Shown piece by piece: positions 34,777 to 63,643 of a stretch of 64,000 nucleotides of DNA. The notes under the pieces were generated by a model. The model saw only the letters and a list, made by a program, of their open reading frames with translations. It did not search any database and was not told the origin of the DNA. Positions within the stretch are counted from its first letter, which is position 1; each line of letters opens with the position of its first letter. The stretch is from Agreia sp. Leaf210 (GTDB lineage Bacteria > Actinomycetota > Actinomycetes > Actinomycetales > Microbacteriaceae). A program made the position numbers and the translations under genes. The DNA lies in contig NZ_LMKK01000002.1 of NCBI RefSeq assembly GCF_001421485.1, positions 248,001 through 312,000 of the forward strand, written 5' to 3'.

Positions 34777-35447
34777 CCGCCGTCTTCGCGCTCGCACTCG
34801 GCGAGCAGTTCGAGCGGCTGCACCCGATGATGCAGAAAAGGTTCGGCGTCGGCCTCGAGGCGGGCTACGCGTGCGTGGGAACGGGGGTGATGAGCCGCAT
34901 CCGTCGCGGACCCTGGTGGACCATCCCGTTCCTGTGGATCGGGCGCATCCGCAACATCCTGGTGCCGATTCAGGGTACCGATGTTCCTTTCACTGTCGAG
35001 AACTACCCGTATCTCGATCCGCTGGGCCGCGAGACGATCACGTTCGTGCGCAGCTATGGCAGTGGACCTCGGCCACATCGCTTCGACGCCACCATGATCT
35101 ACAGCGAGCGCGCTGGGCGGGTGATCGACTACCTCGGCACGCATCAGCACCTCGCCGTCGACCTCGACCTCACGGTGAACGACGACGGCTCCCTGCTCCT
35201 TCTCTCAGACGCCCAGCGCTTCTACGAGGGCCCTGTCGCGTTCCGTTTTCCGATGCTGTTCAGCGGTCGCGCCGAGCTGCACGAGAGCTACGACGACGAG
35301 GCGCAGCTCTATCGAATAAAGCTCGAGGTACGCAACCGCTGGTTCGGCTTCCTCTTCGGCTACGACGGCACCTTCAGCTGCGACTTCCCGCCTGCTGTGC
35401 AAGCTCCGGCCCGGCTCAAACCGGTTCGGCACGAGCGACGGGAGTAG
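34773..35447 (+). CDS. DUF4166 domain-containing protein
   Basis: A 224-residue DUF4166 protein, starting with the LHPMMQKRFGVGLEAGYACVG type motif. In other bacteria the domain is found fused to SDR-type oxidoreductases and near SRPBCC proteins, consistent with its coupling to the SRPBCC gene here. The function is unknown. Its 3' end overlaps the convergent EamA gene by 32 bp. Confidence 0.82.
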   Translation: MTAVFALALGEQFERLHPMMQKRFGVGLEAGYACVGTGVMSRIRRGPWWTIPFLWIGRIRNILVPIQGTDVPFTVENYPYLDPLGRETITFVRSYGSGPRPHRFDATMIYSERAGRVIDYLGTHQHLAVDLDLTVNDDGSLLLLSDAQRFYEGPVAFRFPMLFSGRAELHESYDDEAQLYRIKLEVRNRWFGFLFGYDGTFSCDFPPAVQAPARLKPVRHERRE

Positions 35448-36300
35448 CCCCCGGGCCCGCGCTCCGCACCGCACCGATGCTCGCGGTCACCACGAGAGCG
35501 ATGGCGAGCACTCCGATGAGCGAGATGTGCTGAGCCAGCAGCACCACACCGGCGAGCGCCGCGATCGCGGGGGCCAGGCTCATGAGGATCGCGAAACTCG
35601 ACGAGGGGATGCGGCGAAGGGCGAACAACTCGAGCGCGTAGGGAATCGTCGACGACAGAACGGCGACGGCCGCGCCGAGAAGCAGGATGTCCGGCCGCAC
35701 GATGGCGGGTCCGGCCGTGGCGAGCCCGAGCGGTAGCGTGAGGACGGCGCCGATGGCCATGGCCAGCGCGAGTCCGTCGAGCCGCGCGAAGCGGCTGCCG
35801 GTGCGTGACGAGAGCAGGATGTAGCCGGCCCAGCTCGCTCCCGCGCCGGCGGCGAAGAGCACCCCCACGGGGTCGAGTTCGCCGAAGCTGCCCTGGCCCA
35901 GCAGAAAGACGCCGATAAAGGCGAGAACCGCCCAGAGCCAACTGGATGCGCGTCGGCTCGTGGCGACCGAGAGCACGAGCGGCCCGAGAACCTCGATGGT
36001 CACGGCTGCGCCGAGCGGGATGCGCGCCAGGGCCTCGTAGAACAAGCCGTTCATGACGGCAAGGGCCACGCCGAACAGCACCACCGTCATCCAGTCGCCG
36101 CGGCTGCGGCCACGCAGCGACGGCCGCGCGATGGCGAGGAGGATGAGGGCGGAGAAGGTGAGCCGCAGCGCGACCATGCCGAGCGCGCCGACGCTGGGGA
36201 ACAGCAGCACGGCGAACGCCGCGCCCACCTCCTGGCACGCCAGCCCTGCGACGACGAGCCCCGCCGCTCCGACGGGGCCGCCGAGACGGGCACGGCTCAT
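35416..36300 (-). CDS. EamA/DMT family transporter
   Basis: A 294-residue ten-helix drug/metabolite transporter with two EamA repeats: the first starts near GPVGAAGLVVAGLACQEVGA, and the second contains GAGASWAGYILLSSRTGS. RhtA-type members export amino acids or metabolites. It is the last gene of the operon SDR-PlsC-AGPS-EamA, with its ATG overlapping the AGPS stop, so it may export or supply something for that pathway, though coincidence is possible. Confidence 0.85.
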   Translation of the reverse strand: MSRARLGGPVGAAGLVVAGLACQEVGAAFAVLLFPSVGALGMVALRLTFSALILLAIARPSLRGRSRGDWMTVVLFGVALAVMNGLFYEALARIPLGAAVTIEVLGPLVLSVATSRRASSWLWAVLAFIGVFLLGQGSFGELDPVGVLFAAGAGASWAGYILLSSRTGSRFARLDGLALAMAIGAVLTLPLGLATAGPAIVRPDILLLGAAVAVLSSTIPYALELFALRRIPSSSFAILMSLAPAIAALAGVVLLAQHISLIGVLAIALVVTASIGAVRSAGPGATPVARAEPV

Positions 36301-37964
36301 TCGTCGAGAAGGACCTTGCCCGGGTTGAAGTGGCGACCGGGATCGACAGCTCCGAAGAGACCGCGCATGATCTTGACGCCCTCGGTCGAGATGTCCTGCT
36401 CCATCCAGGGAGCGTGCTCGAGACCGACGCCGTGGTGGTGCGACAGCGTTCCGCCGGCATCGATGAAGGCCTGCTGGATCGCACCCTTCACGACGTCGTA
36501 GTTGGGGATCGCATCGCCCGTGTCGAGGTAGGCGAACGTGAAGTACAGGCAGGCGCCCGACGTGTAGGAGTGCGACAGGTGAGCCATGATCCAGCCCTTG
36601 ACGCCGATCTCGTCGAACGCGTGGTTGGCGCTGGCGATCACGTTGCGGTAGAGCTCGGGCAGCTTGGCCCAGGGCGCGGCCGTCTCCGAGACGTCGGCCG
36701 ATCCGCCCCAGTCGAGGAACCAGTCGCGGATGTACGGGGTGTCGAACTTCTTCTGGTCGTAGAGAACGCCGGGGCCCTTGCCCACGGTGATGCCGCCGTG
36801 CTTCTTGACGATGCCGGCGATGATCTTCTGGTTCGTCGCCACGAGCTCTTCGCCGCCCTCATTGCCGACGAACGACAGGCACATCTTCTCGGTGTCCCAG
36901 CCCTTCGCCTTCAAGACGACGCCGAGGCCCTTGGTGGCGAGCGCAGAGAAGCCCTTGCTCTTCTTCGAGGTGGCGAACGAGAACAGCGTCTCGTTGCCGT
37001 CGGAGACGCGGGTGATGGAGGGCGTCGCGTCGCTCTCGGAGATCTCGCGCATGGCGGCGAGTCCGGCGTCCCATGTGGGGTAGAGATAGGCGAGGATCTC
37101 GCGCTTGGCCGGGATGCGGTGGATCTGCACGGTGACCTCGGTGATGACGCCGAGGCGGCCCTCGCTGCCGAGGATCATCTCGCGCACGCTGGGCCCGGTC
37201 GACGTGCTGGGCAGGGCGCGCAGAACGAGCACGCCGCCGGGGCGAACGACGCGCAGCCCCTTGGCGATGTCGGCGATGTCGCCGAACTTGTCGCTCTGCA
37301 TGCCCGAGGAGCGCGTCGCCACCCAGCCGCCCACCGTGGAGTGCGTGAAGCTGTCGGGGAAGTGTCCGAGGGTCCAGCCGGCCGCGTTGAGCTCGGCCTC
37401 GAGGTCGGGCCCCTGGGCGCCGCCCTGGATGCGGGCGAGGCTCGACTCGGCGTCGACCTCGATGACCCGATTGAGCCGGCCGAGGTCGAGAGAGACGACA
37501 GTGCGTTCTTCGTTCGCGAGGGGCTCGAGGCTGCCGGCGATGTTGCTGCCGCCGCCGAACGGGATGAGCACGGCGTCGGCAGCGACGACCGCATCGACGA
37601 TCAGGCGGACCTCGGCCTCGTTGGCCGGGTAGACGACGACGTCGACAGCGCGCGGGAACGCGCTGGTGCGAACACGGATGAGATCGCGGATGCTCTTGCC
37701 GAACGTGTGCACCACTCGGGACATGTCATCGGTTTCGACGTGGTCGTCACCGACGATGCCGGCGAGCAGCAGAACGAACGACTCCGCCGCACGGCTGAAC
37801 GGAACATCGATGTCCGCGAATGTCGGCGGCTCGCCCTTGGTCTTGGTGAGGTCGAGTCCCAGATTCTTCTTCACGAACGGCGCGAAGCCCGGCTTGTTCT
37901 CGTGGTGGAATGCGACGCCGTCGACGCCCCAGCCCCACCATTTCATGTGCTTGACATCGCTCAT
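36297..37964 (-). CDS. FAD-dependent alkyldihydroxyacetonephosphate synthase (AGPS) homologue
   Basis: A 555-residue flavoenzyme expected to exchange the acyl group of acyl-DHAP for a fatty alcohol, making the ether bond. It matches eukaryotic AGPS along its length: MKWWGWG at the N-terminus, the FAD loop PFGGGSNIAGS, TRSSGM, LGSEGRLGVITE, the catalytic Arg in ITRVSDG (near 318), ETAAPW, the catalytic Tyr region SGACLYFTFA (near 470) and the His triad GGTLSHHHGVG (near 508). These are the residues AGPS needs. There is no peroxisomal targeting extension, as expected in a bacterium. AGAGGAG lies seven bases before the ATG. Overlaps of 4 bp on both sides place it in an operon with PlsC and EamA. 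Confidence 0.87.
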   Translation of the reverse strand: MSDVKHMKWWGWGVDGVAFHHENKPGFAPFVKKNLGLDLTKTKGEPPTFADIDVPFSRAAESFVLLLAGIVGDDHVETDDMSRVVHTFGKSIRDLIRVRTSAFPRAVDVVVYPANEAEVRLIVDAVVAADAVLIPFGGGSNIAGSLEPLANEERTVVSLDLGRLNRVIEVDAESSLARIQGGAQGPDLEAELNAAGWTLGHFPDSFTHSTVGGWVATRSSGMQSDKFGDIADIAKGLRVVRPGGVLVLRALPSTSTGPSVREMILGSEGRLGVITEVTVQIHRIPAKREILAYLYPTWDAGLAAMREISESDATPSITRVSDGNETLFSFATSKKSKGFSALATKGLGVVLKAKGWDTEKMCLSFVGNEGGEELVATNQKIIAGIVKKHGGITVGKGPGVLYDQKKFDTPYIRDWFLDWGGSADVSETAAPWAKLPELYRNVIASANHAFDEIGVKGWIMAHLSHSYTSGACLYFTFAYLDTGDAIPNYDVVKGAIQQAFIDAGGTLSHHHGVGLEHAPWMEQDISTEGVKIMRGLFGAVDPGRHFNPGKVLLDE

Positions 37965-38710
37965 TGCAGGGCTCCTCTAGATCGTGGGGACTGGCCAAGG
38001 ATAGTCGCGGAATGCAGCTCGCGCAGGCGCAGGATCTCCTGCTTGGTGCGCTCGGCGAAGTGGCCCGGGGTCTCCCCCGCGATGGGCCGCAGCGGCTCGC
38101 CGAAGACGACGCCGACCGGGTAGCGGCCCCGACGGGGCCAGTTCGCGCCGCGCGGGTGGGCGACGTGAGCGCCGATGAGTGCCATCGGAATGGTGGGAAC
38201 GTCGCACGAGGCCGCGAGCGCAGCGGCTCCCGGCTTGAAGTTGCCGACTTCCCCGTCTTTCGACCGGGTTCCCTCGGGAAAGATCAGGATCGGAATGCCG
38301 CGTGACAGCAGCGAGCGGGCACTGATCGACTTCGCCTTCGATTCCATGCGCTTCACGGGGAAGGCGTTGAAGAACAGGGCGGTGAGGCCGCGCCTCCACC
38401 ACACCGCGAAGAAGTAGTCGGCTGCGGCGCCGGTGGCCAGATATCGTGCGAGCCGGCGGGGAAGGGAGCCGACGATGAGGGGCGCATCGAGGTGACTGGA
38501 GTGGTTGGCGACGACCACGAAGCCGCCGGACAGGTCTTTGAGCTTCTCCCTGCCGATCACCGTGACGCGGGTGAGCGACCAGATCAGGGGCTTCAGGAGG
38601 CCGCGTTGCACCACGAAACGGGCGGCCGCGACGCCGGGAGAGTTGAAACGATCCCGTGCGCCGGGGGCGACGCTGACCGGCCCTGCTGGGGCGTCTTCTT
38701 CTGCAGCCAT
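37961..38710 (-). CDS. PlsC-type 1-acylglycerol-3-phosphate acyltransferase
   Basis: A 249-residue membrane-associated acyltransferase. The catalytic motif NHxxxxD is NHSSHLD (Asn69-Asp75), and FPEGTRS (144-150) is the glycerol-phosphate-binding motif. The family acylates sn-2 of lysophosphatidate; next to an AGPS it could acylate 1-alkyl-glycerol-3-phosphate. Its ATG directly abuts the SDR stop (TAG-ATG), and its own stop overlaps the AGPS start. Confidence 0.9.
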   Translation of the reverse strand: MAAEEDAPAGPVSVAPGARDRFNSPGVAAARFVVQRGLLKPLIWSLTRVTVIGREKLKDLSGGFVVVANHSSHLDAPLIVGSLPRRLARYLATGAAADYFFAVWWRRGLTALFFNAFPVKRMESKAKSISARSLLSRGIPILIFPEGTRSKDGEVGNFKPGAAALAASCDVPTIPMALIGAHVAHPRGANWPRRGRYPVGVVFGEPLRPIAGETPGHFAERTKQEILRLRELHSATILGQSPRSRGALQ

Positions 38711-39487
38711 CTAGGTGACCGGCTTCTTTCGACTCGAGGAAATCGACCCGGAGACTGCGCGTATCGCACTCCTCGGTGCGTGGCGAGCCAACCAGATGAG
38801 GGTTCGGTACCGAACAGTCGGTATGGAGATTACCCTGCCCCGGTCGACGTCGCGCAAGCATGCCGTGACAAGTTGTTCGGCGTCGAGCCACAAGAAGTTT
38901 GGAATGCTCGACGCCTTGATTCCGGCGCGCTCGTGAAACTCGGTGTGCACCCAGCCCGGGCAGAGCGCCGTCACGCCGATACCCGTGCCGCTCAATTCGA
39001 CGGCCAGGCCCTCGGTGAACGACGTGACCCACGCCTTCAGCGCCGAGTAGGCGCCCATGGTCACGAAACCCGCGGTGCTCGAGACGTTGACGATCTTGCC
39101 CGTGCCGCGCGGCAGCATCCCCCGCGCCGCGGCGCCGGAGAGCACCAGCACGGCGCGACACATGACCTCGAACGCGCGATCGTGCGCCGAGACGTCGGAG
39201 TCGATCAACGACGTGTGCACGCCGAATCCGGCGTTGTTCACCAGCATGTCGATCGGTCTCGACGGGTCTTCGAGACGCTCGGCGACGCGTGCCACGTCGG
39301 CACGGTCGGCGAGGTCGGCCGGAAAGATCTCGACCGATCGACCCAGCGCGCGGATCTCGTCGGCCATCTCCTCCAGTCTCGGAACGCTTCGAGCGACGAG
39401 AACAAGGTCATATCCCTGCGCAGCGAGGGACCGGGAGAACGCAGCACCTATGCCAGACGTTCCTCCCGTAACGAGAGCTACAGCCAT
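38711..39487 (-). CDS. short-chain dehydrogenase/reductase, candidate acyl/alkyl-DHAP reductase
   Basis: A 258-residue classical SDR. The cofactor motif TGGTSGIG is at 7-14, NNAG near 84-87, and the catalytic Ser136/137-Tyr147-Lys151 triad (NVSS, YSALK) is intact. Arg33 after strand 2 (VARS) suggests NADPH. The closest functional model by context is Ayr1-type 1-acyl/alkyl-DHAP reductase, itself an SDR, because the gene leads an operon with PlsC and AGPS; this is inference. The start is leaderless-like (TAACCT on the minus strand, plus 39494-39499, 6-base gap). Confidence 0.85.
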   Translation of the reverse strand: MAVALVTGGTSGIGAAFSRSLAAQGYDLVLVARSVPRLEEMADEIRALGRSVEIFPADLADRADVARVAERLEDPSRPIDMLVNNAGFGVHTSLIDSDVSAHDRAFEVMCRAVLVLSGAAARGMLPRGTGKIVNVSSTAGFVTMGAYSALKAWVTSFTEGLAVELSGTGIGVTALCPGWVHTEFHERAGIKASSIPNFLWLDAEQLVTACLRDVDRGRVISIPTVRYRTLIWLARHAPRSAIRAVSGSISSSRKKPVT

Positions 39488-39558
39488 GGGGTTAGGTTAG
39501 TCTGCTCTTCACGGCGTCGTTTACGCACGCAGGTTTTCGACCAGTCGGCAGGGCTCTC

Positions 39559-40377
39559 ATGACATCCACAGACGCAGCTTCTCGTGCGCGCTTCGACGTG
39601 CGGGCTTTCGCCACAACGGCTCGCGGCACTCTGCGCCCCGAGCTCCAGCTCGAGGCCTACGAGGCCTCGCAGCTCTCTCCCGACGCGGTTCATCTGCTCC
39701 GCTACCTTGGTCGCCTCGAGAGCGCCACCATGGAGCAGCTGCGCAACCTCCTCGTGACCGCTACGCACAAAGACGCCCGAGTCACCGCCTTTCTCGTCAC
39801 CTGGGCCTTCGAGAAGTTCTGGATCGCAGACGCGATCGACCAGATCCTCGTGGCGAACGGCAGCGTCGGGGCTCAGGTCGGCGACGAGGGCGCGGCTCGG
39901 GCCGATCGCTCCGAGTCCGCCGAGCGCCGCGGGCCGATCCGACGCGCGATCCTCGCCATGGGCCAGGGCGTGCCGCTCACCGGTGTGCACATGACGGCCG
40001 GCCTCATCGACGAATGGGTCATGGACACGGCCTACGAACGGCTCGATGCTCTGGCCGCACACCCCACCCTCAGCGTGACGCTCGGCACGATTCGCAGCAT
40101 CAAGAGCCGGCACGAGTCGTTCTTCGCCGAAGAGGCGCGACGACGTCTCGCAGAGTCGCCCAAGACCGTGAAGCAGGCGACCAGCCAACTCGCTCACGCC
40201 GCCTGGCCGATCGGAGCGGTTGATCGCTCCGACACAGATCGAACCTTCTTCGAACAGACCGTCTTCGGCGGTGCCGACGGACTTCAGCGCGCAACCACGA
40301 TCGGACACAGAGTGGCAGAACTTCCCGGCCTGACCCCGCAGACCGGCGACGCCGTCGCCCGGAAGCTTCGATCGTGA
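39559..40377 (+). CDS. ferritin-like paralogue with degenerate diiron site
   Basis: A 272-residue helical protein related to the ferritin-like protein at 42710-43498 (shared RYL..., ATHKDA/PSHKEA, FW and RHxxFxxxxARxRLA patterns). Of the six metal ligands inferred in that paralogue, three are replaced here: Lys86, Ile89 and Lys182 stand where Glu77, His80 and Glu171 are expected. Glu54, Glu152 and His185 remain. It is therefore probably a non-catalytic partner or scaffold. Its stop overlaps the GTG of the reductase-HAD gene (GTGA), so the pair is coupled. Confidence 0.75.
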   Translation: MTSTDAASRARFDVRAFATTARGTLRPELQLEAYEASQLSPDAVHLLRYLGRLESATMEQLRNLLVTATHKDARVTAFLVTWAFEKFWIADAIDQILVANGSVGAQVGDEGAARADRSESAERRGPIRRAILAMGQGVPLTGVHMTAGLIDEWVMDTAYERLDALAAHPTLSVTLGTIRSIKSRHESFFAEEARRRLAESPKTVKQATSQLAHAAWPIGAVDRSDTDRTFFEQTVFGGADGLQRATTIGHRVAELPGLTPQTGDAVARKLRS

Positions 40378-42695
40378 GCGACGCGGTGGACACCACCGTG
40401 AACGACGCGCTGTCCTGGACGGCGTCCTCCGATCTCGGCGACGCCCACGTCTTCATCACGGGCGGAACCGGCTTTGTGGGCCAGGCCATCGTCGAACGGC
40501 TGCTCTCGTCGCATCCGGCGACCACGATCTCACTGCTCATCCGCACCAAAGGCAGCACCACCGCCGACGACCGTCTGCGCACGCTGCTGCGCAAGCCCGT
40601 GTTCGGTCCGTGGCGCGAGCGCGTCGGCGAAGACGAGGTCGAACGCGCGATGCGCGAGCGACTGCGTGTCGTCGAGGGCGACCTCGCCAACGTTCCCCCG
40701 CTGCCGGCCGACCTCGACGTCGTCATCCACAGCGCATCGACCGTGTCGTTCGACCCGCCCATCGACCAGGCCTTCGAGACGAACCTCGGCGGCGCGATCG
40801 CCCTCTACACGGCTCTGGCCGAATCCGGCGGTGACCCCCACGTCGTGCACGTCTCGACCGCTTATGTGGGCGGCCTGCGCAAGGGCATCGTGCCCGAGGG
40901 TCGACTCAAGCACGAGGTCGATTGGCGCGCAGAGCTCACCGCCGCTCGGGATGCCCGGGTGCGGGTGGAGATGGCATCGCGTCAACCCGAGACGCTGCGC
41001 ACGTTCATGAACGACGCCCGCGCGGTGCACGGCAAGGAAGGCCCGCAGGCGGTTGCCACCGCAGCCGAGACCGGACGCGTGGAGTGGGTGCGCGAGCGGC
41101 TCGTCGACTACGGCCGGAGCCGAGCGCAGAGCCTGGGCTGGACCGACGTCTACACACTCACCAAGTCGTTCGCCGAGCGGGCGGCGGAAGAGCTGTGGCG
41201 CGAGACCGGTCACCGTCTGTCGGTCGTGCGCCCGGCCATCATCGAGAGCGCTCTGCGACACCCGTATCCCGGTTGGATCGACGGCTTCAAGGTGGCCGAT
41301 CCCCTGGTTCTCGCCTACGCCCGCGGCAACCTCACCCAGTTCCCCGCCCTGCCAGACACGGTGCTCGACGTGATCCCGGTCGACTACGTGGTCAACGTCA
41401 TCCTCGCCGTCGCTGCGAACCCGCCTTCGGCAGAGTCCGAGGTCGACGCCGCGTATTATCACGTGAGCTCCGGCGCCCGAAACCCGCTGCCGATCCACCG
41501 CATGTTCACGAACATGAACGAGTTCTTCACCGCCACGCCCCTGCCGCACGAGAGCGACGGCCACATCGAGGTTCCGTACTGGACCTTCCCCGGCACCCGC
41601 AAGGTCGATCGCGTGCTCCACAACCAGGAGGTCTGGAACGCACGCCTCGAGCGGGCACTCGAGCGCCTGCCCTCGACCGAACGCAGTCGCGTGCACGTGA
41701 AGAAGGCTCTCAAGCGTCGTGACGACCTCGAGAACCTCCGCACCTTCGTCGAGCTCTACCGCGCCTATGTGCAGACCGAGATCATCTTCGACGACCGCAA
41801 TACACGAGCGCTGCACAACGCCCTGCCCGCCGAGCTGCGCGACGACATCGGCTTCGATGTCACGGCCATCGACTGGGAGGACTACCTGCAGAAGGTGCAC
41901 TTCCCGTCGATCACTGCTCTGACACGCGCCTTCGCGCTGCGCCCGGCGGCATCCGAGCGGGTGGCGAAGGCCCTTCCGACGCGCAGCGATGTCCTCGCCG
42001 TGTTCGACTTCGAGGGCACGGTCGTCGACTCCAACATCGTCGAGCAGTACCTCTGGGTGCGCTCGGCGGGCTTCCGCAAGGCCGCGTGGCCCAGCGAGGT
42101 CGCGAGCCTGCTCACCTCGCTCCCCGGATATCTGAAGGCCGAACACCGCGACCGCGGCGAGTTCATCCGCGCGTTCCTTCGCCGCTACAGCGGCATGCCC
42201 GCGAAGCGCCTCGAGAAGGTCGTGTCGGGCGGCTACCGCGAGACGCTGCTGCGGCACACGATGCCCTCGGCGATCGCGCGTATCGAAGAACACCGCGCCG
42301 CCGGCCACCGCACGGTACTGGTCACCGGATCCATCGGCATCCTGGCCTCGCCGCTCGCCGCGCTGTTCGACGACGTCGTAGCGGGATCGATGCATGAGCG
42401 CGACGGCATCCTGACCGGCTACCTCGCGCAGCCACCTCTGGTAGACGAGGCGCGCGCAGCGTGGCTGCGTCGCTACGCCGAGACGCACGGCATGGATCTG
42501 TCGAAGTCCTACGGCTACGGCGACAGCCACTCCGACCTGGTCTGGCTTCAGCTGCTCGGCAACCCCACAGCCATCAACCCCGACACCAATCTTTCTCGCG
42601 AGGCGCTCCGAAGAAGATGGAGCATTCACAACTGGAAACGCGGCACCCGCGGAGCATCCGCACTGCCGCAATTCGCGAAGGGAACCGGAGAGTAA
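40374..42695 (+). CDS. fatty acyl reductase (extended SDR) fused to HAD-IB domain
   Basis: A 773-residue fusion. Residues 1-400 are a male-sterility/FAR-type extended SDR with FITGGTGFVG (cofactor loop, Gly30-Gly36), HVSTAYVGG, and YTLTK (catalytic Tyr near 260, Lys near 264). It would reduce acyl-CoA/ACP to fatty alcohol with NADPH. A linker region follows, then an HAD-IB phosphoserine-phosphatase-like domain from about 540: motif I AVFDFEGT (Asp545, but Glu547 where Asp is usual), VLVTGS, and GYGDSHSD. The alcohol product is the second substrate of AGPS, encoded in the divergent operon. GTG start coupled to the upstream gene. Confidence 0.85.
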   Translation: MSDAVDTTVNDALSWTASSDLGDAHVFITGGTGFVGQAIVERLLSSHPATTISLLIRTKGSTTADDRLRTLLRKPVFGPWRERVGEDEVERAMRERLRVVEGDLANVPPLPADLDVVIHSASTVSFDPPIDQAFETNLGGAIALYTALAESGGDPHVVHVSTAYVGGLRKGIVPEGRLKHEVDWRAELTAARDARVRVEMASRQPETLRTFMNDARAVHGKEGPQAVATAAETGRVEWVRERLVDYGRSRAQSLGWTDVYTLTKSFAERAAEELWRETGHRLSVVRPAIIESALRHPYPGWIDGFKVADPLVLAYARGNLTQFPALPDTVLDVIPVDYVVNVILAVAANPPSAESEVDAAYYHVSSGARNPLPIHRMFTNMNEFFTATPLPHESDGHIEVPYWTFPGTRKVDRVLHNQEVWNARLERALERLPSTERSRVHVKKALKRRDDLENLRTFVELYRAYVQTEIIFDDRNTRALHNALPAELRDDIGFDVTAIDWEDYLQKVHFPSITALTRAFALRPAASERVAKALPTRSDVLAVFDFEGTVVDSNIVEQYLWVRSAGFRKAAWPSEVASLLTSLPGYLKAEHRDRGEFIRAFLRRYSGMPAKRLEKVVSGGYRETLLRHTMPSAIARIEEHRAAGHRTVLVTGSIGILASPLAALFDDVVAGSMHERDGILTGYLAQPPLVDEARAAWLRRYAETHGMDLSKSYGYGDSHSDLVWLQLLGNPTAINPDTNLSREALRRRWSIHNWKRGTRGASALPQFAKGTGE

Positions 42696-42709
42696 GCTCT
42701 CCTCACACC

Positions 42710-43498
42710 ATGGCATTCGACGTAGACAAATACACGGCCACCTCGGTCAGCGTGAACTGGGACGATCTCGACCTCGAGCGCTTCCGTGAACACCCCCTCC
42801 CCGAGGGCTCTCTGCGCACCCTCCGTTATATGGCCGATGTGGAATACCACACGGTCTGCTACACCCGCGACCTGCTCACCACGCCCTCTCACAAAGAGGC
42901 GGAGATGGGCGCGTTCATGACCATGTGGAACCGCGAGGAGTTCTGGCACGGCGAGGCCCTCGCCACGGTGCTGGGAATCCACGGCATCAACGTCGATTTC
43001 GACGAGCTCAAGGCCAAGCGGCTCAAGCTCGGCTGGCGCGACAAGTTCGACCCGATCAAGCAGTCCGTGATCGGCAAGGTCGTCGGAGCCGACTTCGTGG
43101 CCGTGCACATGGCCTGGGGCGCCGCCAACGAGTGGTCGGCGATCACCGCGTACAACCGCATGGCCGCGCTAGAGCAAGACCCGGTGCTCGCCGAGCTGCT
43201 GAAGCGCATCGCGAAGCAAGAGGCGCGTCACGTGGCCTTCTACACGTCGCAGGCGCGCGAACGACTCGCGAAGAGCACCAAGGCGCAGAAGTTCGCACGC
43301 TTCGCCCTGAGCAACTTCTGGGCCCCCGTCGGCTCCAGCATCATGGAGAAGAACGAGGTGAAGCACGTAATGGGCCATCTCATGGGTGGCGTCGAGGGTC
43401 GCAAGGCCGCGCGCAAGATCGACACTGCCATCAGCGGACTTCCCGGCCTCGAAGGGCTCACGATCGTCGACGACTCGCTCAACGCGCTCGGCGTCTAG
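42710..43498 (+). CDS. ferritin-like diiron protein (candidate lipid oxygenase/desaturase)
   Basis: A 262-residue four-helix protein. The diiron pattern is complete: Glu45 (helix 1, VEYHT), Glu77 and His80 (ExxH in REEFWHGE), Glu141 (ANEWSAITAY), and Glu171 and His174 (ExxH in KQEARHVAF). It resembles soluble acyl-ACP desaturase and aldehyde-deformylating oxygenase architecture, but the specific family was not recognised. Downstream of a fatty acyl reductase it could act on an acyl, aldehyde or alkyl-ether chain. The ATG lies 15 bp after the reductase stop. Confidence 0.8.
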   Translation: MAFDVDKYTATSVSVNWDDLDLERFREHPLPEGSLRTLRYMADVEYHTVCYTRDLLTTPSHKEAEMGAFMTMWNREEFWHGEALATVLGIHGINVDFDELKAKRLKLGWRDKFDPIKQSVIGKVVGADFVAVHMAWGAANEWSAITAYNRMAALEQDPVLAELLKRIAKQEARHVAFYTSQARERLAKSTKAQKFARFALSNFWAPVGSSIMEKNEVKHVMGHLMGGVEGRKAARKIDTAISGLPGLEGLTIVDDSLNALGV

Positions 43499-61198: not shown

Positions 61199-61713
61199 TC
61201 ATTGTCGGGGGGTTGATACAGCCTCAAAATTCCAGAAATCGCCGGAAAATCGGCTCTGTTGGATGACAAGACTGACACCCGAAAACGAGGAATGACCGCG
61301 AGTTGGGGGGTTTTTGCGGGGTGCAGCACCCGCAACAACGGTTCACGAACACAATGCCGCCCCGTCGCCTTCTGATACCTGGATGATGTGGTCAAAGGGC
61401 GAATGTACGGCTGGATCCGTATCTGATCGATCCAGTAACGTCAGAGTCCGATTGGCCCGCGCTCTGGATCTACAAACACAAAGTACTCAAGCCGTAACGA
61501 GCGATCACCCACCCCTTGCGACATGAGTTCAACTATCGGCGATATATCTTGATGAATCGCTGTGTCGATTGAGTGTATTCGGAGGCGGCAACCGCAAAGT
61601 TGTAAAGATCACTCAAGGCGCAACCGCGACATTTCATGCGATTAGACGCTGCTTATCGTCATAAAATGACAGAATCGCCCCTATACTCACACTATGCATG
61701 TAAGGATGTCGCG

Positions 61714-63036
61714 ATGCTTCTGAAGTTCGCCGTGGCGAACCACCGCTCAATTTTTAGGGAGGTCGAGCTTTCACTGATAGCCGTCGACGAAGATCGGGAT
61801 GCGGCTCGATCCTTTGAACTCCTAAACGAAAAGGTACTCACGGTTGCCGGTCTCTATGGACCGAACGCATCAGGGAAGTCGAATGTGATCTCCGCGATCT
61901 CGTGGTTAAGCAGTGCCGTGAAATCATCTCTTCGTCTTTGGGAAAACGTCATTCCCCGAGAGCCTTTTGCTTTCGAAGATGGGATGACGTCGCAGTCGAC
62001 CTTTGATCTCGATTCCGTCGTTGACGGCGTACGGTATTCGTACCAGCTCGAGATCGGAACTGAGGGCGTTGAGTATGAAGCTCTCTCTTACTATCCAGAG
62101 AAACGCCGTCGCAATATTTTTGAGCGCGAGCAGAACAGCATTAAGTTTGCCCGAGGCATCAAGGGTGCAGCGGGAACTCGGGAATTATTGACCCCATCGA
62201 CGCTCGCCCTTTCCGCGGCGCGACGGTTTAACGACTCATTCATAGTCGCGTTCGCAGACGATGTAGCCTCCTACACTTTCCTCGGCCAATCACTGCGACG
62301 TAGGCGTAGGGGTTTTGGGGGGCCGGGTGCTTTCGTCGTTCCTTCTGCGCGAACCGAGCGCTGGTTCGAGGAGGCCGATCAAGAGCAACTCGAAATGTTC
62401 GTCGAGGACGACGTGCTTACAACTAACCGCGCGCGCGCTTTGGCTTTGCTGAAGATGGCTGATTTGGGGATTTCGGATGTCGAGTTCGAGGAACCCGAAG
62501 AAAGCACGTTATCCAAGGACAATACGGCGAGCGGGCTTCGTCCGCGAGATCAGGTGCGGATGGTACATCGCACTGATCGCGAGAACGCATCATTTGCATT
62601 CTTCGAGGAGTCGGCAGGCACTCAAACATGGTTCAACCTCATCGGGCCAACGCTGACGGCTCTCGGGCGTGGCTCTGTGCTCTTTTTCGATGAAATAGAC
62701 GCGAGTCTCCACCCAACACTGACTGCACAGCTGATCGCCCTGTTTCAAGATCCGACAACTAATCGAATGGGCGCGCAGCTCATCTTCACAACCCACGACA
62801 CGACCCTGTTGAACCACCTCAATCGGGACGAAGTATGGCTCACTGAAAAACAGTCGAATGGCATGACGACCTTGCGCGCGTTGTCGGATTTTGCCGGGGA
62901 TCGAGTTCGAAGATCGCACAACCTTGAGCGCGGCTACCTTCAAGGTCGCTTTGGGGCGCTGCCCGATATTGACAAGTATCAGGTGCTTGTGGCGATGGGC
63001 TTTGCTGGGGGAGATCGTCTTGGCGCGGACGCCTAA
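61714..63036 (+). CDS. AAA ATPase of a RloA/AbiLi-type defence system
   Basis: A 440-residue ABC/SMC-like ATPase (AAA_15/OLD-like). It starts MLLKFAVANHRSI, typical of these proteins. Walker A is GPNASGKS (Gly49-Ser56), Walker B FFDEIDASLHP is near 325, and TTHDT (H-loop) is near 361. No nuclease domain is attached; the partner gene provides it. AAGGA lies seven bases before the ATG at 61714. It overlaps the RloB-like gene by 17 bp. The pair resembles RloAB/AbiL systems, in which the ATPase senses phage infection and releases or activates the effector. Confidence 0.85.
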   Translation: MLLKFAVANHRSIFREVELSLIAVDEDRDAARSFELLNEKVLTVAGLYGPNASGKSNVISAISWLSSAVKSSLRLWENVIPREPFAFEDGMTSQSTFDLDSVVDGVRYSYQLEIGTEGVEYEALSYYPEKRRRNIFEREQNSIKFARGIKGAAGTRELLTPSTLALSAARRFNDSFIVAFADDVASYTFLGQSLRRRRRGFGGPGAFVVPSARTERWFEEADQEQLEMFVEDDVLTTNRARALALLKMADLGISDVEFEEPEESTLSKDNTASGLRPRDQVRMVHRTDRENASFAFFEESAGTQTWFNLIGPTLTALGRGSVLFFDEIDASLHPTLTAQLIALFQDPTTNRMGAQLIFTTHDTTLLNHLNRDEVWLTEKQSNGMTTLRALSDFAGDRVRRSHNLERGYLQGRFGALPDIDKYQVLVAMGFAGGDRLGADA

Positions 63037-63643
63037 ACCTTCTGGGCTCAAACGCCCCGTCGCGAAGCTGCCGGAACGGCGAACATTCTTGATATTCACT
63101 GAAGGCGAGGTCACCGAAGTTGAGTACCTCAACGCGCTCAAGAGCTTGCCCGAAGTCAAGACCGCGAATGCGGTTGACCTCCAGATTGCCAGTCAACGGG
63201 GGGTGCCGTTGACGCTAGTCGAACTTGCCGTGGAGGCTCAATCAAAGAACGACGAGATTGACCAAATTTGGTGTGTGTTCGACGTCGAATGGCCAAAGCA
63301 TCACCCGCATTTGAACGAAGCAAAGTTGTTGGCACAAAACCACGGAATTCAGCTTGCAATCTCCAACCCAAATTTCGAGTTATGGCTAATTTTGCATCAC
63401 GCAAACACCGAAGGATTTCTAGACAACGATGGCGCACGCCGCTTACGTAGGGATCACGACGGCGTAGCAGACAAGCACCTCGACCACGCCGTGTATCTGC
63501 CGCTTCGTGCCGCCGCAACCATGCGCGCGATCGACTTGGATGCAAAACATCGAAACGACGGCACGAAGTTTCCAAGTGATAATCCTTCCTCGGGAATGCA
63601 TCGCTTGCTGCGCGCGATTGAGCCTGGTCTTCTGGAGGTGTAG
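63020..63643 (+). CDS. rloB: RloB family protein (AbiLii/Toprim-like effector)
   Basis: A 207-residue RloB-domain protein. FLIFTEGEVTEVEYLNAL gives the conserved Glu29 after the first strand. WCVFDVEW (Asp88, Glu90) matches the D-x-D/E position of Toprim folds, and ISNPNFELWLILH (Glu120) is the RloB hallmark. It is probably a nuclease that acts only when the ATPase partner senses infection. A TTG start at 63020 with GGAG six bases upstream gives a 17-bp overlap with the ATPase gene. Confidence 0.85.
   Translation: MARTPKPSGLKRPVAKLPERRTFLIFTEGEVTEVEYLNALKSLPEVKTANAVDLQIASQRGVPLTLVELAVEAQSKNDEIDQIWCVFDVEWPKHHPHLNEAKLLAQNHGIQLAISNPNFELWLILHHANTEGFLDNDGARRLRRDHDGVADKHLDHAVYLPLRAAATMRAIDLDAKHRNDGTKFPSDNPSSGMHRLLRAIEPGLLEV

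Follow-up and report, generated by a model that had tools for sequence, protein, structure and literature searches.

A divergent six-gene block for putative ether-lipid synthesis, with a diiron protein pair, in Agreia and other Microbacteriaceae

Genes of the divergent block

We analyzed a window of 64,000 nucleotides from the 3.54-Mb genome of Agreia sp. Leaf210 (Microbacteriaceae), in which positions 36297–43498 hold six genes arranged as two divergent operons (Table 1). The minus-strand operon reads, in order, a short-chain dehydrogenase/reductase (SDR), a PlsC-type acyltransferase and a homologue of alkylglycerone-phosphate synthase (AGPS). The plus-strand operon reads a first ferritin-like protein (FerA), a fatty acyl-CoA reductase fused to a phosphatase-like domain of the haloacid dehalogenase type (FAR-HAD) and a second ferritin-like protein (FerB). 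Genes within each operon overlap, abut or leave a gap of 14 bp, and 71 bp separate the operons. The original prediction, made from the letters of the window, had described a candidate divergent ether-lipid cluster: its six open reading frames (ORFs), their coordinates and their motifs were all recovered, and its ether-lipid interpretation is supported by the sequence comparisons presented here.

Table 1. Features of the divergent block (window positions)
Feature	Coordinates	Strand	Description
AGPS homologue	36297..37964	-	FAD_binding_4 and FAD-oxidase_C; proposed ether-bond former
PlsC-type acyltransferase	37961..38710	-	PF01553; 3' end overlaps AGPS start
SDR	38711..39487	-	adh_short; proposed alkyl/acyl-DHAP reductase
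Divergent intergenic region, 71 bp	39488..39558	.	predicted to hold both promoters
FerA (ferritin-like A)	39559..40377	+	no domain match; FerB paralogue, proposed partner subunit
FAR-HAD fusion	40374..42695	+	NAD_binding_4 and HAD, sub-threshold Sterile domain
FerB (ferritin-like B)	42710..43498	+	FA_desaturase_2 just below cut-off; proposed ether-chain 1'-desaturase

The AGPS homologue groups with AGPS in sequence comparisons. A phmmer search gave 391 bits to the AGPS of Dictyostelium and 278 bits to mammalian AGPS, against 80 bits to the next family, glycolate oxidase, and among solved structures the protein matched eukaryotic AGPS (2uuu, E = 5.5e-116; 4bby, E = 1.3e-81) ahead of glycolate oxidase (E = 1e-21). 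The identity originally proposed is upheld by these scores, on which we rejected a glycolate or lactate oxidase. The AGPS motifs named at the outset are present, with most of their columns fully conserved in 28 cluster homologues, and residues R319, R413, Y474 and H509–511 (the HHH motif) are invariant in all 28. The first three presumably align with R419, R515 and Y578 of guinea pig AGPS. By alignment and hand count, with a constant offset of 3, they correspond to R352, R447 and Y508 of Dictyostelium AGPS, which are important by mutagenesis (PMC3509576; this and all other cited papers are represented here by excerpts, to which our statements on them are limited).

A second, distant family of AGPS-like proteins (~35% identity) is widespread in the class, where it provides the sole matches in 134 of 325 genomes at E 1e-50. 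All five of these paralogues that were examined retain the R/R/Y/HHH residues, so that the residues alone support the chemistry and not the pathway. The one paralogue tested scored 268 bits against eukaryotic AGPS, compared to 391 bits for the protein of the block. At one locus (L041:8105-12939), a gene of this distant type, from a family also present in L039–L043, has a diacylglycerol-kinase-like gene as its neighbour and, close by, another that resembles, by eye, a glycerol-phosphate dehydrogenase.

The acyltransferase is assigned by PF01553 (E = 9e-23), by the structure 5kym (PDB; E = 3e-16) and by the motifs NHxxxxD and FPEGTRS. This agrees with the original prediction, which further proposed that PlsC acylates the sn-2 position. 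Because the host genome encodes four further PF01553 acyltransferases, the sn-2 step is not necessarily its task, and we lean toward an sn-1 role, at least as likely, in which PlsC would acylate dihydroxyacetone phosphate (DHAP) to acyl-DHAP. The SDR matches adh_short (E = 1.6e-45) with Y147 and K151 of its YxxxK motif invariant (28/28); its best NCBIfam model is a mycolate reductase, at 167.5 bits vs a cut-off of 380.

The reductase part of FAR-HAD (residues 21–513, ~40434–41912) matches the fatty acyl-CoA reductase 7eoz (PDB; E = 1.2e-45) and PF07993 (E = 8e-46). It presents the features of an alcohol-forming enzyme: NAD_binding_4, a YxxxK motif with Y260 and K264 invariant (28/28) and a C-terminal Sterile domain just below threshold (34.6 bits vs 35.4). 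The phosphatase-like HAD-IB part (residues 541–738, ~41994–42587) matches PF12710. The usual form of the HAD motif is DxDGT, whereas here it reads DxEGT (residues 544–549), with D, E, G and T invariant (28/28), and the invariant glutamate in place of the second aspartate suggests that the phosphatase chemistry has been changed or lost. Many relatives of FAR-HAD align only from residue 16–23 onward, so that translation may in fact begin a short way downstream of 40374.

The ORF listed for FerB opens at 42461; we placed the start at 42710, based on 29 aligned relatives that begin with MAFD or MGFD. The resulting protein of 262 residues carries the diiron ligands E45, E77xxH80, E141 and E171xxH174, all invariant (34/34). 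Its AlphaFold2 model has a predicted local distance difference test (pLDDT) score of 83.5, with residues 104–117 below 50. A Foldseek search of this model against the PDB returned desaturases of acyl-acyl carrier protein (acyl-ACP) as its top 11 matches (E = 1e-4 to 7e-4), with a moderate structural fit (template modeling score 0.61–0.64; root-mean-square deviation 5.7–7.5). The FerB profile weakly reaches DesA2 (E = 0.0036). The window protein scores 22.5 bits with PF03405 vs a curated cut-off of 22.7 and passes no Pfam cut-off; all 30 FerB members examined match PF03405 with E-values no higher than 0.1 (the lowest being 3e-5), and some of them may pass. PF10520 (Lipid_desat of CarF/PEDS1) had no match in FerA or in the 30 FerB members.

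FerA is a paralogue of FerB (hhalign, 100%, E = 1.6e-51). Across 34 sequences, E77 is replaced by K in 30, H80 by I, V, L or F in 34 and E171 by K in 26, while E45 is retained in 31, E141 as E or D in 28 and H174 in 26. For the FerA model (pLDDT 93.1), Foldseek returned nothing below E 0.001; its weak matches were acyl-ACP desaturases and R2-like oxidases, the strongest at E = 0.006. With three of six ligands lost, we rejected the reading that FerA is another active diiron oxidase. Both of the ferritin-like proteins originally predicted are thus present, but they are not equivalent, the full diiron site being found in FerB only. From sequence and model, FerB reads as a desaturase-type soluble diiron oxidase with FerA as a degenerate partner. 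The fold and ligand pattern of FerB are common to castor stearoyl-ACP desaturase and Mycobacterium tuberculosis DesA2. FerB differs from these soluble enzymes in its length of 262 residues, its identity of ~15%, its borderline Pfam score, its degenerate paralogue as partner and its link to ether-lipid genes.

Conservation and distribution of the block

We surveyed 299 genomes of Microbacteriaceae, defining AGPS orthologs by an identity of at least 60%; among 96 genomes with matches at E 1e-40, 11 with only 28–38% matches were dropped. AGPS orthologs were found in 85 genomes, FAR-HAD in 86 and FerB in 92, and the three genes occurred together in 84 genomes (83 when excluding G113, whose match is of FerA grade only). 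No AGPS ortholog occurred without FAR-HAD (0/85), and the single genome with FAR-HAD but no AGPS has a contig ending inside the block. One genome presented AGPS without FerB (G101, 85% complete) and eight presented FerB without AGPS. The orthologs are distributed over 29 of the 85 genera in our list. Fisher tests on these counts take no account of kinship, and we draw nothing from their p values.

Titled genome contigs, when searched with FerB, yielded 237 confirmed stretches, and our locus counts rest on the best 80 of these 237. All six genes were found in identical order and orientation in 62 of the 80 loci, with FerB closing the plus-strand operon in these 62. The other 18 comprise two five-gene Subtercola loci with a divergent FerA, two loci cut by contig ends, 11 with FerA-FerB only and three with FerB only. 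The original expectation that the gene set stays together is borne out by this conserved order and by the co-occurrence in 84 of 299 genomes, on which we rejected a chance neighbourhood of the genes.

Two loci have further genes between FAR-HAD and FerB, a LarA-like gene and a second PlsC: Subtercola lobariae (L152:7596-9859) and a genus of Jiangellaceae (L212:7959-10966). The LarA-like gene resembles hydroxyacid isomerases dependent on the nickel-pincer nucleotide; the best NCBIfam models of the Subtercola copy are LarAH14/15/16, below cut-off, and the Jiangellaceae copy was read by eye. This Jiangellaceae genus had no AGPS match at E 1e-50. A relative of nickel-pincer racemases inside an ether-lipid block is an odd finding.

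The original prediction also called for a survey across Actinobacteria, and we found the gene set outside the family, in another order in Jiangellaceae and on a plasmid of Streptomyces, which carries the whole six-gene block. In Jiangella, FAR-HAD, SDR, PlsC and AGPS are clustered and FerB lies elsewhere in the genome; that FerB co-occurs even when unlinked indicates an association that is more than neighbourhood. Another genus of Jiangellaceae presents the complete divergent block (L208, L219). In a survey of 325 genomes of the class, where AGPS orthologs were defined by E < 1e-180, AGPS-like matches were found in 170 genomes, AGPS orthologs in 36 and FerB in 36. Orthologs and FerB were found jointly in 21 genomes (hand count) vs ~4 expected; 17 of these 21 belong to one family, so kinship accounts for part of the excess. 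Beyond the family survey, FAR-HAD was sought in 25 chosen genomes and found in 17. Carriers of an AGPS ortholog account for 10 of these (out of 11 searched; the copy in G528 has an internal stop) and genomes with FerB but no ortholog for seven (out of nine).

A proposed route to plasmalogens

The sequences establish the gene identities, the intact catalytic sites and the co-inheritance, whereas all reactions of the block and their order are our inference, the FerAB step most of all. The block very probably serves AGPS-type alkyl-ether lipid synthesis. As the best full explanation, we propose an aerobic ether-lipid pathway that would end in plasmalogens through FerAB, to which we assign a probability of roughly one half (0.52). 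FAR would make a branched fatty alcohol, and PlsC, or a housekeeping enzyme, would make 1-acyl-DHAP, on which AGPS would exchange the acyl chain for the fatty alcohol. The SDR would reduce the resulting 1-alkyl-DHAP to 1-alkyl-glycerol-3-phosphate, from which ordinary phospholipid synthesis would yield alkyl-acyl phosphatidylglycerol and cardiolipin. FerB, with degenerate FerA, would then introduce the 1' double bond using O2, giving plasmalogens that would be detected through their acid products, the dimethyl acetals (DMAs). The odds that FerAB is a plasmalogen desaturase of a non-CarF type appear about even. Slightly more tentatively, FerAB could be a 1'-alkenyl desaturase that evolved independently on the acyl-ACP-desaturase fold, unrelated to CarF/PEDS1 and acting on ether lipids of the phosphatidylglycerol/cardiolipin type, and the block could be the missing genetic basis of aerobic actinobacterial plasmalogens, including those mis-called 'C14:0 2-OH'.

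The proposed steps follow the same logic as the animal peroxisomal route (FAR1, GNPAT, AGPS and PexRAP/DHRS7B, followed by PEDS1/TMEM189), with a homologous AGPS. PEDS1 is an eight-histidine membrane protein (PMC8960569) that acts on ethanolamine lipids, whereas FerB has a soluble E/ExxH diiron fold. In a 2022 review, myxobacteria stand out from other aerobic bacteria by their plasmalogens, for which the desaturase is CarF/PEDS1 (PMC9131029). Their nearest match to the block is the Myxococcus xanthus operon MXAN_1676-1674 (AGPS; FAR with a GNPAT-like part; NAD-dependent epimerase), which likewise brings together AGPS, FAR, acyltransferase and reductase in an aerobic organism with plasmalogens (PMC9131029). 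Unlike M. xanthus, where FAR is fused to the acyltransferase and CarF is the desaturase, the block has FAR fused to HAD and a separate PlsC, and the diiron pair FerAB occupies the place expected for CarF. The myxobacterial ElbB-ElbE operon also links FAR-like, HAD and acyltransferase parts to ether lipids, but is without AGPS and has another domain architecture (PMC9131029). The original comparison with ElbD stands for its FAR and acyltransferase parts, found there with an acyl-CoA synthetase and ACP, and fails for the phosphatase-like part, since the HAD protein is ElbB (PMC9131029). The anaerobic PlsA/PlsR operon leads to the same class of end product by reductive conversion of diacyl lipids (PMC9702350).

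DUF2229, which we take to be a domain of PlsA, was absent from all 10 genomes searched (controls positive in 4 of 14), of which eight belong to genera with DMA or 2-OH reports, and we rejected the anaerobic PlsA route on this basis. CarF/PEDS1 is likely absent from Microbacteriaceae as well, with matches in 0 of 299 genomes in a search whose control also gave no match. The exclusion of the known vinyl-ether enzymes, together with linkage, makes FerB the best candidate for an O2-dependent 1' desaturation.

Lipid profiles printed for carrier genera give indirect support to the ether lipids that the original prediction requires, through DMAs in Subtercola and, less clearly, in Agreia. Four Subtercola species present i-16:0, a-15:0 and a-17:0 DMAs (PMC5945732); one of them is S. 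lobariae, in which the block is present (L152). The DMAs of aerobic Subtercola go back to a report of 2000 by Mannisto et al. (cited in both PMC5945732 and PMC7472656). In Kineococcus, gas chromatography–mass spectrometry identified the 'C14:0 2OH' peak of the MIDI system as anteiso-C15:0 DMA, with DMAs indicating plasmalogens (PMC7472656). Four DMA-bearing type strains of Subtercola, when analyzed by MIDI, present 3.9–15.6% of 2OH-C14:0, with no DMA reported in the excerpt (PMC9287328), which is the outcome expected if a mis-call of the Kineococcus type applies. 'C14:0 2 OH' amounts to 17.0% in F. faeni and 4.2% in G. tibetensis, and to a trace in Lysinibacter cavernae (PMC7033078); the block is present in the first two (L120 and L077). 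No 2-OH acid is among the major acids listed for Agromyces chromiiresistens and Salinibacterium metalliresistens (PMC10713820). The polar lipids given for Subtercola, Agreia and Frondihabitans are phosphatidylglycerol, diphosphatidylglycerol, glycolipids and unknowns, with no phosphatidylethanolamine (PMC5945732). By analogy with Kineococcus, we infer that the 'C14:0 2-OH' entries of carrier genera may be DMAs.

Several observations weigh against a pathway ending in plasmalogens through FerAB. The nearest known kin of FerB act on acyl-ACP and not on an ether phospholipid, the block is without a gene for an electron donor, and the control of the CarF search was silent. In the class survey, 15 of 36 AGPS orthologs occur without FerB and 15 of 36 FerB genomes without an AGPS ortholog. 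Eleven of the 80 loci (L085, L089, L090, L094, L095 and L097–L102), from Leifsonia, Agromyces, Humibacter and Glaciibacter, have FerA-FerB as their sole block genes within flanks of up to 10 kb, and five FerAB-only genomes of Microbacteriaceae that were searched contained neither an AGPS ortholog nor FAR-HAD. Among the lipid reports, iso-C15:0 DMA of Agreia is given as up to 4% in the text and as not detected in Table 3 (PMC5945732), S. lobariae is listed with 14:0 2-OH in addition to a-15:0 DMA (PMC5945732) and S. endophyticus has no 2OH-C14:0 by MIDI (PMC9287328). From one Subtercola strain to the next, the MIDI 2-OH values do not parallel those of a-15:0 DMA. Frondihabitans, which carries the block (L109, L125), is listed without DMAs and with 18:1 and 14:0 2-OH as major (PMC5945732), and Lacisediminihabitans profunda has just a trace of C14:0 2-OH (PMC7033078); the block is present in a different Lacisediminihabitans (L105).

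Three alternatives were considered. The block might make alkyl and not alkenyl ethers, with FerAB hydroxylating chains or desaturating them at mid-chain and any vinyl ether formed by another enzyme. We consider this less likely, although FerB is similar to mid-chain acyl-ACP desaturases, FerAB occurs without AGPS or FAR in some genomes, some carrier genera have no DMA or C14:0 2-OH in the excerpts, and 18:1 is major in Frondihabitans (PMC5945732) and high by MIDI in several Subtercola strains (PMC9287328). On the other side, the sign of ether lipids reported for Subtercola consists of DMAs, the other printed profiles of carrier genera show mostly saturated branched chains, and neither search for known vinyl-ether enzymes returned a match, the CarF control being silent.

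It is improbable that vinyl ethers are made without FerAB, for instance reductively, as was earlier suggested for ElbD of M. xanthus, with FerAB as an unrelated passenger. Genomes with an AGPS ortholog and no FerB, and those with FerAB alone, would fit such a passenger. However, FerB accompanies AGPS in Jiangella without being linked to it, and ends the plus-strand operon in most loci. In the FerB tree, moreover, all 13 FerAB-only rows kept fall in a clade of 36 rows (support 100/100). The 23 remaining rows of this clade, with the exception of L092, contain the complete block; inner branching is weakly supported. The FerAB-only state is therefore likely derived, by loss of the ether module or by transfer of the pair. 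Finally, the widespread ~35% AGPS-like proteins, with catalytic residues intact in all five examined, would allow a FAD (flavin adenine dinucleotide) enzyme acting as an oxidase, with FAR alcohols for wax or storage lipids and no membrane ether-lipid pathway, but this is very improbable, as the block mirrors the eukaryotic gene set with its AGPS, acyltransferase, reductase and FAR, and its AGPS is nearer to eukaryotic AGPS than the paralogue tested.

Surroundings and significance of the block

The 71-bp intergenic region has an identical length and a nearly identical sequence in the four Agreia loci compared. At 39488–39502 we noted by eye a TAnnnT-like motif on the minus strand (TAACCT here, TATCGT in several relatives), which ends 6–7 bases ahead of the SDR start, as would be expected of a leaderless transcript. 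At the far end of the minus-strand operon, an EamA gene (35416–36300) overlaps the end of AGPS by 4 bp and may be co-transcribed with the block in Agreia. The five closest titled loci by FerB (98–99%) are all Agreia; among the 80 loci, EamA and Gfo relatives (>100 bits) are restricted to the five of Agreia, three of which also present SGL. At the low-GC end of the window (56%), positions 61636–63643 encode an AbiLi-like ATPase and an AbiLii-like protein (PADLOC, E = 1.1e-90 and 4.7e-22), likely a phage-defence pair and perhaps located on an island.

The pathway type is already known, and AGPS homologues have been reported in Black Sea actinobacterial genomes (PMC11868695); what is new lies in the fusion of FAR to HAD, in the divergent arrangement of the operons and, foremost, in FerAB. 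The excerpts on bacterial plasmalogens or AGPS (PMC9702350, PMC9131029 and PMC11868695) do not mention a ferritin-like enzyme, and our searches of the open-licence literature, which cover titles, listings and excerpts, revealed no publication that names the gene set, subscription journals being outside this scope. If true, the proposed pathway would provide a gene basis for the plasmalogen signals long reported in such actinobacteria, for which the Subtercola DMA passages at hand propose no genes. The block would then predict which genera should have plasmalogens and would point to a second chemistry for vinyl-ether formation, and many 'C14:0 2-OH' entries in taxonomy papers on Gram-positive bacteria would be expected to represent a plasmalogen product.

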